A stretch of DNA of 45,338 nucleotides from a virus. Each line of letters begins with the position of its first letter. The stretch's first letter is position 1. The stretch lies in IMG/VR virus record IMGVR_UViG_3300022929_000056, positions 1-45,338 of that record; one strand, 5' to 3'. Made by a program: the position numbers and the translations under genes. The notes beneath the pieces were generated by a model. The model was given only the letters and a program-made list of their open reading frames with translations. It was not told where the DNA came from and made no database searches. Below are positions 33,081-44,427 of this stretch, piece by piece.

Positions 33081-33284
33081 ATGATTAAAGTTACAAAAGT
33101 AAACGAACAGAAAACACCTAAAGTTTTAGACGGCAAACAATCCTATTCCAACAAAGGCACTTTGCAAACAAAGAAAGCAAAGTCTTTTGATGCCAACACC
33201 ACACCAAAACCAGGTATGGGTAAAGGCAAGGCTAGAGGTATGGGTGCTGCTGAATTTGGTGGCAAGTTTTCTGGTATTTATTAA
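33081..33284 (+). CDS. Small basic hypothetical protein
   Basis: A 67-residue Lys/Gly-rich protein (VNEQKTPKVLDGKQSYSNKG, then TPKPGMGKGKARGMGAAEFG), two bases after the portal stop. It lacks hydrophobic core, so it is probably disordered. 'GKARGMGAAEFGGKF' reminds of short Gly-rich tags seen in marine phage virion proteins. Its stop overlaps the next ATG. It may be a minor head protein that contacts DNA, by charge only. Confidence 0.55.
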   Translation: MIKVTKVNEQKTPKVLDGKQSYSNKGTLQTKKAKSFDANTTPKPGMGKGKARGMGAAEFGGKFSGIY

Positions 33285-33493
33285 TGGATTTAATTTGGCT
33301 TGCCGAAGCCTTACAAAAGATTCTTAAAGAAAAAAAAGAATCTTTAGAAGACTTGATTATGAACGGTGCCAAAGATTTCCAAGAATATAACTATCTACGT
33401 GGTCGTTACAATGCCCTCGAAGACGTAGAGCAAGAATTAAGGGTGTTGCTGGAAAGGAGTGTAGAAAACGATGAAAGAGGTACTGGTACCTGA
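33284..33493 (+). CDS. Small helical hypothetical protein
   Basis: A 69-residue protein, amphipathic helix all along (LAEALQKILKEKKESLEDLI, then YLRGRYNALEDVEQELRVLL). This pattern is common in small phage proteins between portal and scaffold, sometimes annotated as head-closure or chaperone-like. Its end overlaps the GroES-like gene by 23 bases, which suggests coupled expression. No function shown. Confidence 0.6.
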   Translation: MDLIWLAEALQKILKEKKESLEDLIMNGAKDFQEYNYLRGRYNALEDVEQELRVLLERSVENDERGTGT

Positions 33494-33953
33494 TCATATC
33501 GCAAGAGAGGTTGAAGCTGAAAAGCAAAAACCAGAAGAAGAAAAGTCAGAATTGGATCAAGCTTATGTCAACTCAGATGACAGAGTTCTCGACCCAACTT
33601 TATTAGAAAAATCCTACTTAGAACGTATGCCTCAACCGACAGGTTGGAGGTTGTTGATTTTGCCATACAAAGGCAAAGCCGTTACTAAAGGTGGTATTGT
33701 TCTAGCTAAAGAAACTGTAGAAAGAGAATCCCTAGCTACTGTGGTGGCTTACGTAGTGAAGATGGGTCCTCTTTGTTATGCCGATAGAAATAAATTTGGC
33801 GATACCCCTTGGTGCCAAGAAAAAGAATGGGTATTAATTGGTAGATATGCAGGAGCTAGGTTTAAACTTGGCGACGATGCAGAGTGCCGTATTATTAACG
33901 ATGACGAAGTCATTGCAACTATAGAAGACCCTGACGATATCGTTAGTGTCTAA
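33471..33953 (+). CDS. GroES-like co-chaperonin (viral Cpn10)
   Basis: A 160-residue protein whose residues about 55-155 match the Cpn10 fold: PTGWRLLILPYKGKAVTKGG, GGIVLAKET at 74-82, then YVVKMGP, WVLIGRYAGARFKLGDD and DDEVIATIEDPD. GGIVL is the GroES mobile-loop sequence (Ile-Val-Leu contact GroEL). The family replaces host GroES and may change folding specificity for capsid proteins, like T4 gp31. A 50-residue acidic extension (AEKQKPEEEKSELDQAYVN) precedes the domain, longer than bacterial GroES (about 97 residues). The gene stands between portal and scaffold/capsid genes, as expected for a capsid-folding factor. Confidence 0.88.
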   Translation: MKEVLVPDHIAREVEAEKQKPEEEKSELDQAYVNSDDRVLDPTLLEKSYLERMPQPTGWRLLILPYKGKAVTKGGIVLAKETVERESLATVVAYVVKMGPLCYADRNKFGDTPWCQEKEWVLIGRYAGARFKLGDDAECRIINDDEVIATIEDPDDIVSV

Positions 33954-35992: not shown

Positions 35993-36895
35993 ATGGCAAT
36001 AAATAGAGCGCAATTAGCGAAAGAACTAGAGCCTGGATTGAACGCCCTTTTTGGGTTGGAATACTCCAGGTATGAAGCTGAACACGCTGAAATTTTTGAT
36101 ACTGAATCTTCTGATAGAGCGTTTGAAGAAGAAGTTCTAATTTCAGGTTTCGGTAATGCTGAAGTAAAAGCTGAAGGTACAGGCGTTAGATTTGATAACG
36201 CTTCTGAAGGCTACACTTCACGTTACACTCACGAAACAGTTGCTTTGGCTTTTGCATTAACAGAAGAAGCTGTTGAAGATAATCTCTATGACAGACTTGG
36301 TGCTAGATACACTAAGGCGTTAGCGAGATCTATGGCTAATACTAAGCAAATTAAGGCTGCTGCTGTATTGAACAATGCGTTCTCTACAACAGGAGGCGAT
36401 GGTAAAGTCCTAATTGCTACTGATCACCCTTTAAGTGGGGGTGGTACACTAGCAAACAGAGCTACAACTATGGCTGACCTTAATGAAACTTCATTAGAGG
36501 ATGCTTTGATAAATATATCAACATTCACTGATGACAGGGGCTTAACAATTGCTTTGAGAGGAATGAAACTAATTGTTCCACCTCAACTTCAATTCGTAGC
36601 TGACAGACTACTCAGTTCTCCAGGGAGAGTTGGTACTTCTGACAATGACATCAACGCAATCAGAAACACAGGAATGTTGCCTGATGGTTATGTAGTAAAC
36701 CACTACTTAACTGATACAGACGCTTTCTTTATCAAAACTGATTGTCCTGATGGATTTAAGCACTTTGAAAGATCACCTCTTTCAACTGCACTAGAAGGCG
36801 ACTTTGATACTGGAAACATGAGATACAAAGCTAGAGAAAGGTATTCATTTGGATACTCTAACTTTAGAGCTGTATACGGTTCTCAAGGAGCTTAA
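35993..36895 (+). CDS. Major capsid protein (HK97 fold)
   Basis: A 300-residue protein. Typical features: an N-terminal arm, a spine helix with LTEEAVEDNLYDRLGARYTK and ALARSMANTKQIKAAAVLNN, the P-domain core, and the A-domain region LRGMKLIVPPQLQFVADRLL and GRVGTSDNDINAIRNTGMLP, ending in ARERYSFGYSNFRAVYGSQG. The pattern is that of podovirus HK97-type capsid proteins (Mu-gpT-like group). No delta domain of HK97 type, which agrees with the separate scaffold gene. It is followed by a strong terminator, so it may be expressed at a high level as the end of a sub-operon. Confidence 0.92.
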   Translation: MAINRAQLAKELEPGLNALFGLEYSRYEAEHAEIFDTESSDRAFEEEVLISGFGNAEVKAEGTGVRFDNASEGYTSRYTHETVALAFALTEEAVEDNLYDRLGARYTKALARSMANTKQIKAAAVLNNAFSTTGGDGKVLIATDHPLSGGGTLANRATTMADLNETSLEDALINISTFTDDRGLTIALRGMKLIVPPQLQFVADRLLSSPGRVGTSDNDINAIRNTGMLPDGYVVNHYLTDTDAFFIKTDCPDGFKHFERSPLSTALEGDFDTGNMRYKARERYSFGYSNFRAVYGSQGA

Positions 36896-38431: not shown

Positions 38432-38698
38432 ATGGCTGAATACAGGGGCAAAAAGGTAACTCTGAACAAACCAAGGAGAATCTCTAAGGGTTCTCCTGGG
38501 TTCGGTAAGAAAACTAGAGAAGTTTTTGTTAGAGTTCCCTCCTCTGGAAAAATTAAACGGGTAACTTTTGGCGACCCAAAATTAGGCGCACATCCTAGCA
38601 ATCCTAAAAAAAGAAAAGCTTACTGCGCTCGCAGTAAAAATCTAGGAGACGATAGAACTAAAGCAAATTATTGGTCAAGAAGACAATGGAGATGCTAA
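38432..38698 (+). CDS. Small Lys-rich protein 1
   Basis: An 88-residue very basic protein (YRGKKVTLNKPRRISKGSPG, KIKRVTFGDPKLGAHPSNPK, KAYCARSKNLGDDRTKANYW). The pattern 'KV.LNKPRRI..G' and 'YC.RS' recurs in short pelagic phage proteins of unknown role. It starts one base after the structural gene and is followed directly by a related basic gene. High positive charge suggests interaction with packaged DNA or with a negatively charged virion surface, which is inference. Confidence 0.65.
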   Translation: MAEYRGKKVTLNKPRRISKGSPGFGKKTREVFVRVPSSGKIKRVTFGDPKLGAHPSNPKKRKAYCARSKNLGDDRTKANYWSRRQWRC

Positions 38699-38929
38699 GT
38701 GGCAAAAGCTAAAAGCGGCGGTAAAATATGTCCAGCTGGCAAGGCTTGGGCAAAACGTACTTTTGATACATATCCTTCTGCCTATGCAAATATGGCCGCA
38801 TCAAAATATTGTAAAGATCCAAACTATGCAAAAGACTCTAAGAAAAAGAAACGGGTTAAGAAAGCTGGAGGGGGATTGGTATTTAACGTAAGAGGACAAG
38901 GCAGAGTAATGCCAAATAGATTGAGATAA
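38699..38929 (+). CDS. Small Lys-rich protein 2, GTG start
   Basis: A 76-residue basic protein beginning with GTG at the base after the preceding stop; GGAG is eight bases upstream. KICPAGKAWAKRTFDTYPSA, then YANMAASKYCKDPNYAKDSK and KKKRVKKAGGGLVFNVRGQG form a family I recall from marine phages ('ICP.GKA.AKR.F..YPSAYAN..A...C'). Conserved Cys residues may bind metal. Role unknown; part of the run of basic proteins. Confidence 0.65.
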   Translation: MAKAKSGGKICPAGKAWAKRTFDTYPSAYANMAASKYCKDPNYAKDSKKKKRVKKAGGGLVFNVRGQGRVMPNRLR

Positions 38930-39372
38930 TGGGACAACTTAAACAGTGGCGAGAACAAAACTGGGTAAGAATAGGTACTGATGGTTCTATTAAGGGACCG
39001 TGTGGAACCAGTAAAAATAAAAAGAATCCAGATAGATGTTTGCCAAAAGCTAAAGCTCAAAGTCTATCTAAGTCAGAACGTGCCAAAACTGCACGTAAGA
39101 AAAAAGCTGCGGGTGCAAAAGGTAAAACCGTAGTAGCAAATACAAAAAAAGCTAGAGTTTCTGTAAGCAGAGGAGGAGAGATGCTAAAAAACAAATTAAA
39201 AGCTGATCTTAACAAAGACGGTAATATATCTTCATACGAAATGAAAAGAGGTATGGCTATTGAAAAAGCCATGTCTCAACAAAATCGTGTGAAGAAGGAA
39301 AACGGTGGATTCATAGCAAAAGGCTGTGGTAAAGTTATGAACAATCGTCGTAAAGTAACGACTATATCTTAG
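38929..39372 (+). CDS. Lys-rich protein 3 with EF-hand-like loop (DUF6321-like)
   Basis: A 147-residue basic protein. The first half (QLKQWREQNWVRIGTDGSIK, then CGTSKNKKNPDRCLPKAKAQ, SLSKSERAKTARKKKAAG) is a marine phage family that I associate with DUF6321. Residues 93-104 (DLNKDGNISSYE) have the exact spacing D-x-N-x-D-G-x-I-x-x-x-E of a Ca2+-binding EF-hand loop, an unusual addition. The end (NGGFIAKGCGKVMNNRRKV) is Gly/Lys-rich. Its ATG overlaps the previous stop (TAATG). It could be a Ca-responsive DNA- or surface-binding virion protein (inference). Confidence 0.68.
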   Translation: MGQLKQWREQNWVRIGTDGSIKGPCGTSKNKKNPDRCLPKAKAQSLSKSERAKTARKKKAAGAKGKTVVANTKKARVSVSRGGEMLKNKLKADLNKDGNISSYEMKRGMAIEKAMSQQNRVKKENGGFIAKGCGKVMNNRRKVTTIS

Positions 39373-39381
39373 GAGATAATT

Positions 39382-39576
39382 ATGCCAGCAAAAAAAGCAG
39401 CAGATAAAAAAATGGATGCCAAAATGAAGGCTAGACAAAATGCAAAGGTAAGACCTGATGAGCCAGTAGAGGAAACAAGGATCTACTTAAACATGCCTAA
39501 GAAAAAGGCTGCTCCAAAAAAGAAAGCACCAGCTAAGAAAAAAGCACCTGCTAAAAAGAAAACTACTAAAAAATAA
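39382..39576 (+). CDS. Histone-H1-like Lys/Ala/Pro repeat protein
   Basis: A 64-residue protein. Its last 25 residues repeat PKKKA/APAKKKA (KKAAPKKKAPAKKKAPAKKK), the composition of histone H1 tails and of bacterial Hc1/AlgP-like proteins. The N-terminal half is also basic but has an acidic spot (PDEPVEETRIYL). RBS is AGGAG before the ATG. It likely binds DNA without sequence preference. Whether it is packaged in the virion is unknown. Confidence 0.7.
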   Translation: MPAKKAADKKMDAKMKARQNAKVRPDEPVEETRIYLNMPKKKAAPKKKAPAKKKAPAKKKTTKK

Positions 39577-39585
39577 AGGTTTACT

Positions 39586-39801
39586 ATGTATAAAAGAACA
39601 AAAGGGTATGCCGCTGGCGGCCAAGTAAAATCAAAAGGTATGCGTAAAGGTGGCGTATACAAAAGCAAAGGTATGCGTAAAGGCGGTGTCGCCAAAAGCA
39701 AAGGCATGCGTAAAGGCGGCGTATACAAAAGCAAAGGTATGAACAAGGGTGGCCCAATGAAATCTAAAGGATACAAAAAGGGCGGGAAAGGTAGGCCGTA
39801 A
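39586..39801 (+). CDS. Tandem-repeat Lys/Gly protein (KSKGMRKGGVY repeats)
   Basis: A 71-residue protein made of about five copies of an 11-residue unit: KSKGMRKGGVY, KSKGMRKGGVA, KSKGMRKGGVY, KSKGMNKGGPM, KSKGYKKGGKG. At DNA level the unit is 33 bases with synonymous drift, so it is not a fresh duplication. Net charge is extremely positive. It lies after the histone-like gene, so both may neutralise DNA. It ends right at the GTG of the next gene. No homologue named. Confidence 0.7.
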   Translation: MYKRTKGYAAGGQVKSKGMRKGGVYKSKGMRKGGVAKSKGMRKGGVYKSKGMNKGGPMKSKGYKKGGKGRP

Positions 39802-40479
39802 GTGGCTTACTTACAAAGCAACATCCCACATTTCAAATGCTGGGTCAGAAAAGAATATACGCATAATCACGAAAAATATCACGGTGAGTTTCTTCACGCC
39901 ATGGCTATCGCTGTTACGACGATGCCTTGCCGTTGTTTAAGTTTTCAATTGATATTTACAGGTATAGAGGCAGAAGGCGAAGAAGAAGATACAGTTCATG
40001 GTGGCGCTATGTGGGCCAGGATGCCAATAACAGCGCTTGTAGGAGATACACCTTTTGAACAGTGGCCAGAACCAATGGCTGTTCACGATGCTCAACCTTG
40101 GGATTGTTCTTCACACCATCATGCCGTTTACGTATTAGATAGAGCCACACCTTGTCCTTGGCTGGCTAAAATAGATGGTAATTTTTACCCAGCTAAATAC
40201 ATGTTTACTGTTGATTATGCTGAAAATGAGATAGCTGATGATCCTGCCCAACATAAACAAAGTCATGTTTTAGAATTATTAGACGCAGGAGAATGGACAG
40301 GTAATATCGTAGCGTTACCAAATAATCGTGTAAGAGTTACCCACCCCGCTTGGTTTGAGACTGGATCAGGCGCACCTGATTTTAGACCATCCGCACATAT
40401 ACATTATTCAAAGTCTGATTTAGACTATACGTTGGATGTAAACAGAATTTTTGATAATCTATATGCAGAGGACGAGTAA
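39802..40479 (+). CDS. Conserved hypothetical protein, GTG start
   Basis: A 225-residue protein starting with GTG at the base after the previous stop; GGCGGG-type Gly codons precede, no clear SD. It is rich in His, Trp and aromatic residues (FKCWVRKEYTHNHEKYHGEF, WDCSSHHHAVYVLDRATPCP, and FRPSAHIHYSKSDLDYTLDV). Acidic patch AEGEEEDTVHGGAMWARMPI. No catalytic family is recognised; many His/Asp/Glu suggest metal binding. I recall similar proteins in marine phage genomes but not a function. Overlaps the next ATG (TAATG). Confidence 0.62.
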   Translation: MAYLQSNIPHFKCWVRKEYTHNHEKYHGEFLHAMAIAVTTMPCRCLSFQLIFTGIEAEGEEEDTVHGGAMWARMPITALVGDTPFEQWPEPMAVHDAQPWDCSSHHHAVYVLDRATPCPWLAKIDGNFYPAKYMFTVDYAENEIADDPAQHKQSHVLELLDAGEWTGNIVALPNNRVRVTHPAWFETGSGAPDFRPSAHIHYSKSDLDYTLDVNRIFDNLYAEDE

Positions 40480-41153
40480 TGGCACTTTCAGGCAGTACAG
40501 ATTTTGAACCTAACGTAACCGAGTTTGTTGAAGAAGCTTTTGAGCGTTGTGGTATTGAACTAAGAACAGGATACGATCTTAAAACAGCAAAAAGATCTAT
40601 AAATCTTATGTTGGCAGAATGGGCCAATAGAGGTTTAAATCAATGGACAATAGAACAAGCTACCCAAACTGTAACAGAAGGAACTTCTAGTTATTCTTTG
40701 AATTCTAACGTAATTGATATATTAGATATGTCGTTGCGTAGAACAGTTAATAGTGAAACAACTGATACAAGTATGAACAGAATCAGTCGCTCTGAATATT
40801 TGAATATACCAACTAAAGATACAAAAAGCCGACCTTCGCAGTTCTTTTTTGACAAGCTAACTACACCCGTAATAAAAATATGGCCAAGCCCTGAAAACTC
40901 TACGGATATATTGGTTTTTAACAAAATAGTCAGAATGGATGATGCCGATACAGCTATCAATACATTAGATATGCCATTTAGGTTCTATCCTTGTTTTGCC
41001 GCTGGATTGGCTTACTACATATCAATAAAGAGAGCGCCTGATCGTATGCAAATGCTAAAGGCTGCTTACGAAGAAGAATTTAGACGTGCAGCCGATCAAG
41101 ACGAAGATAGAGCATCATTTCGTATAAAACCATCTATGAGGAGTAGTTATTAG
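40479..41153 (+). CDS. Head-tail connector, P22 gp4-like
   Basis: A 224-residue protein. FEPNVTEFVEEAFERCGIEL, RSINLMLAEWANRGLNQWTI and IKIWPSPENSTDILVFNKIV fit the P22 tail accessory factor gp4/tail-tubular-A-like group in marine podoviruses (helical start, central beta region, helical end). It binds the portal and the needle or next tail ring. Its GTG-starting neighbour overlaps its stop. Confidence is fair because the motif 'R.LN.ML.EW..RG...W' is characteristic of this family. Confidence 0.75.
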   Translation: MALSGSTDFEPNVTEFVEEAFERCGIELRTGYDLKTAKRSINLMLAEWANRGLNQWTIEQATQTVTEGTSSYSLNSNVIDILDMSLRRTVNSETTDTSMNRISRSEYLNIPTKDTKSRPSQFFFDKLTTPVIKIWPSPENSTDILVFNKIVRMDDADTAINTLDMPFRFYPCFAAGLAYYISIKRAPDRMQMLKAAYEEEFRRAADQDEDRASFRIKPSMRSSY

Positions 41154-42188: not shown

Positions 42189-42932
42189 ATGAAGCCTATC
42201 AAGAAACTTGAGGGCAAGACTGTAGCCATCGTAGGAATGGGACGTAGTTGGTTTGACTACAATCTTGCTAAATCACACGGAGTACATTTTGACGAAGTCT
42301 GGGCAATAAATGCCGTAGCAGACGTCATATTCCATGATCGTATTTTTATGATGGATCCAGCCAGTCGTTTTTTTGACAGCGACGATGCGGGTGGTCAAAC
42401 AGATTCCATGATCAAAATACTAAAAACGCATGAAGGACCCATATATACATGCGAGCTAGATGAAAGGGCAAAAGGACTTGTATTGTACCCTATAGAAGAA
42501 GTGGTCAGAGAGTTAAACTGTTACTACCTCAATAATACAGTTGCCTACGCAATAGCTTTTGCGTTATGGAACAAAGTAGGCTGTATAAAAATGTTTGGTG
42601 TAGATTTTACTTATACAGGAAATTTATATTTTGCAGAGTCAGGTAGAGGATGTGTTGAGTATTGGTTATCTAAATGTCAAGGCGCAGGTATACAAGTAGA
42701 AGTTGCTAATTCTTCAACCTTGTTAGATACATCTATACCTGTAGAAGATAAATTGTACGGTTATCATCGCCTAGATGATCCAAAAATTATTGTACATGAT
42801 CAAGAAAACAAACTAAGAGTCTTTGACAAAAGCCAAGTAGAACAAAAAGAAGTAGAGCAAAAACCTATGCTTATGGATAGGTATGATACACATCTAAAAG
42901 AGTCAAAAGCAGGAGATCCAAAAGTATGGTAG
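42189..42932 (+). CDS. Rossmann-fold DUF115/MptE-like protein
   Basis: A 247-residue protein, GGAG before the ATG. A Rossmann start GKTVAIVGMGRSWFDYN is followed by FDEVWAINAVADVIFHDRIF (strand-helix), then YYLNNTVAYAIAFALWNKVG, CIKMFGVDFTYTGNLYFAES and GRGCVEYWLSKCQGAGIQVE. This set matches the 6-hydroxymethylpterin-pyrophosphokinase MptE-like/DUF115 superfamily, often called 'norphogenetic protein' or glycosyltransferase-like in pelagic phages. It may add a sugar or modify the virion surface; substrate unknown. It sits in the tail region rather than among DNA genes. Confidence 0.7.
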   Translation: MKPIKKLEGKTVAIVGMGRSWFDYNLAKSHGVHFDEVWAINAVADVIFHDRIFMMDPASRFFDSDDAGGQTDSMIKILKTHEGPIYTCELDERAKGLVLYPIEEVVRELNCYYLNNTVAYAIAFALWNKVGCIKMFGVDFTYTGNLYFAESGRGCVEYWLSKCQGAGIQVEVANSSTLLDTSIPVEDKLYGYHRLDDPKIIVHDQENKLRVFDKSQVEQKEVEQKPMLMDRYDTHLKESKAGDPKVW

Positions 42933-43662: not shown

Positions 43663-44427
43663 ATGGCTGATATAACGGGCTGGGGTCGTGGAACCTGGGG
43701 TTCCGATACGTGGGGCGAACCTAATCCTGTTACGCTTACTGCACCTAACGCTGCAACAGGATCCGTAGGATCTTTAACCGTTGTTGCAAAAGCAAATGTA
43801 ACGCCTGCTTCACAAGTTGGAACTTCTGCTTTAGGTACGGTTTCTATAGATGCAGAAGCAAATGTAACCCCTACAGGACAATCAGGCACTAGCGCCCTAG
43901 GATCTATAACAACAGACGCCGAAGCTAATGTCACACCATCTGGACAATCTGCTACAAGTGCTTTAGGTACGCCATCTATAGACGCAGAGGCTAATGTAAC
44001 GCCTACTGGACAGTCAGCTACAGGAGCAGTATCAGGAGTTGGAGTAAATGGTCAAGCAGTAGCTACTTTGCCATCTGCTGTAGGTACACTAGGAGCTGTA
44101 TCAGTTGATGTAGATGGAGAGGCAAATGTGCCTGTATCTGGACTTTCCGCTACTAGCGCAGTTGGTACCGTAACCATACATCATAACGCAATATTTGATA
44201 TTGATGGCGTTTCGTCTACTGGATCGGTTGGGTCTGTAACGATTGTAGCAAAAGCTGGAGTATCAATAACAGGTGTATCAGCTACAGGAGAATTAGGAGA
44301 ACCCTTTGTCTGGAGCCTTATAGACGAATCTCAAACCCCTAACTTTAGTGAAATAGATGAAGATCAAACGCCTAGTTTTACAACCATAGATGATAGCCAG
44401 ACCCCAAATTGGGAAGATGTTGCTTAA
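43663..44427 (+). CDS. Tandem-repeat tail/virion protein
   Basis: A 254-residue protein with an aromatic N-terminal part (GWGRGTWGSDTWGEP), then about six to seven copies of a 23-24-residue unit of the type DAEANVTPTGQSATSALGTV, and a C-terminal triple motif (IDESQTPNFSE, IDEDQTPSFTT, IDDSQTPNWED). The end motif is frequent in uncultured marine phages, likely a contact site. The repeats suggest a rod or beta-solenoid. Codon drift between repeats shows they are old, yet four are quite alike, which makes number variation likely. Tail or surface role. Confidence 0.72.
   Translation: MADITGWGRGTWGSDTWGEPNPVTLTAPNAATGSVGSLTVVAKANVTPASQVGTSALGTVSIDAEANVTPTGQSGTSALGSITTDAEANVTPSGQSATSALGTPSIDAEANVTPTGQSATGAVSGVGVNGQAVATLPSAVGTLGAVSVDVDGEANVPVSGLSATSAVGTVTIHHNAIFDIDGVSSTGSVGSVTIVAKAGVSITGVSATGELGEPFVWSLIDESQTPNFSEIDEDQTPSFTTIDDSQTPNWEDVA

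Follow-up and report, generated by a model that had tools for sequence, protein, structure and literature searches.

The window analysed here, the whole 45,338-nucleotide stretch of an IMG/VR virus contig (IMGVR_UViG_3300022929_000056), carries on its + strand a late operon in which genes for TerL, the portal, a GroES-like protein, a putative scaffold, the major capsid protein (MCP) and two acidic head-type proteins are followed by five small basic ORFs (P1 to P5), a phrog_3704 protein and a SU10/Pam1-type adaptor; the names TerL, portal and scaffold were assigned from sequence and position. The features are the following:

35993..36895, + strand: major capsid protein (PF25209, phrog_371), context
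38432..38698, + strand: P1, 88 amino acids, slot-1 protein (phrog_7595)
38699..38929, + strand: P2, 76 amino acids, GTG start (phrog_27331)
38929..39372, + strand: P3, 147 amino acids, two-cysteine module (phrog_23735)
39199..39240 (approximate), + strand: EF-hand-like loop of P3, DLNKDGNISSYE, by EF-hand consensus
39316..39357 (approximate), + strand: C-terminal tag of P3, KGCGKVMNNRRK, by tag pattern
39382..39576, + strand: P4, 64 amino acids, lysine-rich, with an H1-like PAKKK tail
39586..39801, + strand: P5, 71 amino acids, with five KSKGMRKGG-type units
40479..41153, + strand: SU10/Pam1-type head-tail adaptor (PF24175 SU10_adaptor, 52 bits), right border of the cassette region

A first-pass annotation had described five adjacent, strongly basic genes of 88, 76, 147, 64 and 71 residues inside the late operon. 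Their coordinates and lengths are all correct, they lie on the + strand between the MCP-side head genes and the adaptor, and their predicted pI values are 11.27, 10.53, 10.72, 10.52 and 11.14 (P1 to P5), with net charges computed from the translations of +21, +17, +28, +18 and +24. Among the 74 called + strand ORFs of the window they are the top five in net charge per residue, and by our own count the chance that five given ORFs of 74 are consecutive is about 4e-6. The late proteins outside this group are nearly all acidic, for example the MCP (pI 4.8), the portal (4.5) and the putative scaffold (4.7). Median dN/dS values against relatives are 0.018 for P1, 0.10 for P2, 0.10 for P3, 0.13 for P4 and 0.37 for P5, with 0.052 for the MCP; from this codon comparison, all five behave as genuine genes that are translated and under selection.

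Several other genes of the window drew attention. A sixth small basic ORF (33081-33284, 67 amino acids, pI 10.2) lies directly 3' of the portal gene and ends in GKARGMGAAEFGGKFSGIY, another RGxG-type C-terminus; it has no Pfam or PHROG match. The GroES-like co-chaperonin (33471-33953, PF00166, 28.6 bits) lies within the head gene cluster, and a GroES gene is annotated at the same place in HTVC023P, HTVC027P, DSL-LC04 and CRP-902. Positions 42189-42932 encode a 247-residue late protein (KTVAIVGMGRSWFDYNLAKSHGVHFDEVWAIN...) that has no Pfam match and is kept near the adaptor in relatives, and positions 43663-44427 encode a 254-residue protein built of imperfect EANVTPTGQSGTSALGTxSIDA repeats.

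The first-pass annotation had read the five proteins as a histone-like set. This holds by composition for P4 and perhaps for P5, but P1, P2 and P3 are small two-cysteine modules. The paired cysteines, which had been overlooked, as had the coupling of P1, P2 and P3 and a C-terminal motif common to P2 and P3, are almost invariant: the two positions are conserved in 91% and 96% of P1 proteins, 99% and 98% of P2, 99% and 99% of P3, and 100% and 100% of the DUF6321 proteins that take the place of P1 in other phages. P1 has a conserved YCARS...WxC signature (C65 and C88) and a confident AlphaFold2 model (pLDDT 91.5) with short strands followed by two C-terminal helices. A uniform histone-like reading was therefore rejected for P1 to P3, given the paired cysteines and the predicted P1 fold. 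In a Foldseek comparison of P1 with the PDB the top matches were Cren7-DNA complexes, but at an E-value of 1.6 and a TM-score of 0.3 a Cren7-like DNA-binding fold was dropped; a second aligner found no PDB structure at Z of 2 or more. Querying the PDB by sequence with P3, with two DUF6321 proteins and with the fused cyanophage S-P4 protein described below gave nothing useful; the lone match below 0.01 involved a region of the fused protein beyond the core of the modules. A P1 homologue in CRP-902 (L007:2017-2271), and likewise in CRP-901, is annotated as 'HVA1 family protein'; this name is probably wrong, since a Pfam search with window P1 yields no match to that family.

P2 consists of a YPSAYAN two-cysteine module followed by a C-terminal tag, RGQGRVMPNRLR. 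P3 combines a two-cysteine module resembling the second half of DUF5872 with an optional EF-hand-like insert and a C-terminal tag. The EF-hand-like loop noticed in the first pass, DLNKDGNISSYE, fits the consensus, but Pfam EF-hand_1 scores it at 14.7 bits against a cut-off of 25.4; of 144 non-redundant P3 proteins, 44 have the canonical pattern and 99 lack it. P4 and P5 are lysine-rich, disordered-looking and variable companions of P1 to P3. Both the PAKKK repeats of P4 and, in P5, five KSKGM[RN]KGG-type units were confirmed. The likeness of P4 to H1 tails is one of composition only, and an AT-hook-like [RK]GRP[RK] motif occurs in nine of its 37 distinct relatives. P5 contains no acidic residues; its relatives range from 50 to 159 amino acids, with KGG units that vary in sequence and number. 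Neither protein matched Pfam, and tblastn with P5 gave no match in phages. In the corresponding gene region of some relatives, proteins of 296-424 amino acids carry P5-type KGG repeats and a C-terminal KVRGAGIARKGVRPAKM (L149:1008-2213, L153:4267-5541, L155:1667-2557).

For P2 and for P3 alike, scans of IMG/VR turned up more than 500 relatives; the two genes are adjacent in 173 of the 188 loci that have both. The position upstream of them, slot 1, is exchangeable: in the 82 loci with enough flank, not all of them independent, it is filled by P1 in 40 and by a DUF6321 protein in 42, and no locus has both or lacks both. A tree of 104 adaptor proteins requires at least 12 swaps between P1 and DUF6321, all forced by well-supported branches, a number that recombination between slot and adaptor could inflate. 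By hhalign, the P1 and DUF6321 profiles match at 95.3% through their common CARS...WxC end, and P1 matches the cyanophage version of DUF6321 at 84.5%; window P1 does not match the Pfam DUF6321 model (PF19846). Scores of the DUF6321 HMM on P1-type proteins were disregarded, as this HMM may have absorbed P1 sequences.

Spacing within the trio is tight. P2 follows P1 with a gap of 0 in the window and in 48 of 61 loci, and follows DUF6321 with a gap of 0 in 31 of 35; P3 overlaps P2 by one base in 156 of 173, and in the window it likewise shares one base with the P2 stop codon. P4 and P5 mostly begin 2-9 bases after the preceding gene. As read from this spacing, P1, P2 and P3 are made as one translationally coupled unit. 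The expectation that the five-gene order would be conserved in relatives holds for this unit only: slot 1, P2 and P3 stay together, but the exact order of five is confined to closer relatives and occurs in eight of 54 non-redundant, well-covered loci. The arrangement of five is accordingly a local variant of a more widespread group of three. Small basic ORFs, three to seven in number, lie between MCP and adaptor in 89 of the 92 loci that are complete over this interval. A frequent basic family of about 96 amino acids, KxGTGKKPKGSxRRLYTDENPxDTV..., is found between slot 1 and P2 or P3 (L021:5600-5890, L154:5717-6001 and others) and has no Pfam or PHROG match.

The C-terminal tag, RGxGxVMxxR, is common to P2, P3 and a third, unrelated family. 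The pattern [RKN]GxGx[VIA][MI]xxR is located no more than 45 residues from the C-terminus in 57 of 105 P2 and 94 of 144 P3 proteins; among 3181 distinct ORFs it is confined to these three families and is never internal. The third family consists of 102-residue, DUF5824-like (PF19141) proteins encoded directly upstream of P1 (L303:4693-5001, L304:1064-1372, L305:552-860). In 29 loci neither P2 nor P3 is tagged, so not every relative requires the tag. The EF-hand-like loop with an RGxG-type C-terminus is also found alone or behind other basic modules, for example at L078:3190-3375, L313:2307-2597, L317:3850-4173 and L004:15387-15752, and judged from such arrangements it is apparently a mobile add-on. 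Tag and EF-hand insert thus look like small add-ons that are being shuffled.

DUF6321 occurs in 411 phage records, mostly of cyanomyoviruses, and in the cyanomyovirus proteins examined it forms the C-terminal portion of a chain in which P2-like and P3-like segments are also present. Examples of this fused form are P-SSM2 gp114, the S-P4 'structural protein T4 GC0119' and S-SCSM1 ORF29, the sole module-bearing protein found in the S-SCSM1 genome. The patterns of the modules are LxxWF..W..PC..C for the P3 type, [YW]PSAYA for the P2 type and a CARS...WxC end for slot 1. Against the cyanophage segments, hhalign gives 96.6% over 35 columns for P2, 95.8% for P3 (70.7% with a thinner alignment) and 99.3% for DUF6321, control pairs being mostly below 2% with one, P2 to P3, at 24%. 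The P3 HMM detects S-SCSM1 ORF29 with an E-value of 3e-7. The AlphaFold2 model of the fused protein is poor (pLDDT 55). In DSL-LC04, the P2 homologue matches positions 1-39 and the P3 homologue positions 53-107 of the 116-residue Pfam family DUF5872 (PF19197), with scores of 20.1 and 23.6 bits against a cut-off of 27.5; the window P2 and P3 themselves give no match to Pfam DUF5872, which is listed as a protein of the haptophyte virus CpV-BQ1 (PMC12085832). P1, P2 and P3 are thus likely homologous to the modules of the fused cyanophage protein, and by these profile links one cyanophage chain would correspond to three coupled genes here.

P1-like domains are also joined to other proteins. ICP1 ORF125 (locus L320, NC_015157, 4709-5545, minus strand) is an XkdF protease (PF14550, Peptidase_S78_2) with a C-terminal P1 domain (HMM E-value 3e-12), and its product Gp125 is the predicted procapsid protease of that phage (PMC9040626, PMC7567579). 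Phage Melnitz encodes an NMNAT-like enzyme to which both a P1 module and a DUF5824 module are joined; NMNAT-like proteins have been reported in cyanophage virions (PMC9602691).

The proposal that the set is packaged into virions finds support on homologues. Mass spectrometry detected 45 proteins in CsCl-purified S-SCSM1 virions (PMC9602691), and the GenBank record of this phage tags 48 CDS, ORF29 included, as 'virion protein'. The tag tracks detection closely but not exactly, as 48 are tagged against 45 detected and as the terminase subunits and several predicted baseplate proteins are untagged. The fused S-P4 homologue is annotated as 'structural'. In S-CREM2, ORF137 was detected in virions by four peptides (PMC10665884); it follows the adaptor, stopper and sheath-terminator genes, and its identity rests on synteny, because this position matches that of the DUF6321 gene of the related S-CRM01. 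By analogy with these homologues, P1 to P3 are fairly likely to be carried in the virion.

It is thus somewhat more probable than the contrary that P1, P2 and P3 represent a basic, multi-module virion protein split into coupled genes and that the set resides in the head interior. Points that speak against this reading are the different module order of fused and split forms, the poor model of the fused protein, the inexact virion tag, and P1 homologues encoded at a distance from head genes. A head-interior location, the most likely one, is the simplest reading because the proteins are basic, late, encoded beside head genes and related both to a virion-associated fused protein and to part of a prohead protease. 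The set would be produced late, during head assembly, with the head interior as its most likely destination. Positive charge and the two-cysteine modules, which may form disulphides, would tether the proteins initially to the acidic inside of the prohead and later to the DNA once it is packaged; binding to DNA is plausible, and the proteins may also bind the scaffold. P4 and P5 would act as flexible polycations, and the RGxGxVM tag and the EF-hand insert would be exchangeable add-ons. One set carries a total charge of +108, such that about 84 copies of each protein would offset 10% of the phosphates in a 45-kb genome, an abundance within reach of mass spectrometry. Basic proteins have been considered to be without evidence of contributing much to the neutralisation of phage DNA (PMC3281028); if basic proteins do sit with the DNA here, this would contradict the view, stated in that paper, that the charge of packaged DNA in tailed phages is balanced without proteins.

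The same genes could instead encode prohead-core assembly factors, whose modules would dock on the acidic scaffold or inner capsid and aid portal-scaffold-protease assembly, their presence in virions being incidental. This reading, which overlaps partly with a head-interior location, is consistent with the fusion of a P1 domain to the prohead protease in ICP1 ORF125, with the acidity of scaffold, MCP and portal, and with gene positions between MCP and adaptor; it is nonetheless doubtful, since a cyanophage homologue is tagged in CsCl-purified virions and assembly-only core proteins are normally removed. Internal proteins that are ejected with the DNA, as for T4 IPI, and that protect it or act on host targets would also be small, basic and encoded in the head neighbourhood. 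The Melnitz fusion of P1 and DUF5824 to an NMNAT-like enzyme, of a kind present in cyanophage virions, and the fast divergence of P5 would fit such a role. However, strong purifying selection, not arms-race divergence, marks slot 1, P2 and P3, and a common N-terminal leader is not seen, which makes ejection unlikely.

Late proteins that never enter the virion, such as regulators of late transcription or translation or factors that handle phage DNA before packaging, are likewise an unlikely explanation. In this clade the direct evidence is genomic, and some P1 homologues, those of HTVC026P and Flavobacterium phage immuto, are encoded outside head operons; against this stand the virion tag and 'structural' annotation of the fused homologues and the near-constant presence of small basic ORFs between MCP and adaptor. 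The first-pass suggestion that the proteins coat the particle is disfavoured. External decoration or cement proteins would suit genes that directly follow the MCP and cement-like genes, but P-SCSP1u has a DUF6321 gene directly 3' of its MCP gene (its DNA is 100% identical to that of P-SCSP1f), yet its capsid, resolved by cryo-EM at 3.2 A, was reported to consist of MCP only, with decoration proteins absent (PMC10575957), a method that would miss disordered or internal material. This makes an ordered coat on the outside unlikely for the DUF6321 family. Furthermore, the cement protein of DSL-LC04 is encoded by a separate gene, and the corresponding window genes are acidic. Decoration is thus very improbable for the set.

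Within the accessible literature no published description of the whole cassette was found, in agreement with the first-pass impression. The literature searched, with most subscription papers and all supplementary tables outside its scope, leaves DUF6321 unnamed, mentions DUF5872 in a single paper, the one on the haptophyte virus, and, within the same limited scope, describes no set of small basic or lysine-rich marine phage proteins. A head-interior role for the set would join the uncharacterised families PHROGs 7595, 27331 and 23735, DUF6321, DUF5872 and DUF5824 in one testable hypothesis on head proteins of widespread ocean phages. As a tentative extension, marine phages, and perhaps algal giant viruses, may share a pool of basic two-cysteine mini-modules that serves as a combinatorial cargo code. 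The modules would be P1, DUF6321, the DUF5872 halves, DUF5824 and CWxGY; along with EF-hand inserts, with KGG repeats and with the RGxG tag, they might be shuffled, fused or split to load the head and also to equip prohead proteases and virion enzymes. Should basic proteins indeed accompany the DNA in these heads, the shared tag would offer a specific, mutable signal.

The T4 proteins IPI to IPIII, likewise small and basic, act within the head and have an N-terminal capsid-targeting leader that the prohead protease cleaves. The set resembles them in being small, basic and, as proposed here, internal to the head; no sequence relation to them was found, and inspection by eye of P1 to P5 revealed no shared N-terminal targeting leader, a C-terminal tag being shared instead. 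The P1-like domain of ICP1 ORF125 differs from window P1 in being fused to a protease and in having lost both cysteines. DUF6321, which occupies the slot of P1 in about half of the relatives, differs from it in the N-terminal half. DUF5872 is a single Pfam family, whereas its counterpart here is split over two genes. The GC0119/gp114 family, like the window set, has P3-like, P2-like and DUF6321 modules with two cysteines each, and its gene is late and lies near neck and terminase genes. It also carries an extra CWxGY module, a pattern not found in the window, whereas the window has P1 instead of DUF6321, together with P4, P5 and the C-terminal tags. The cyanophage protein is a single chain in the order P3-P2-DUF6321, whereas here three coupled genes follow each other in the opposite order.
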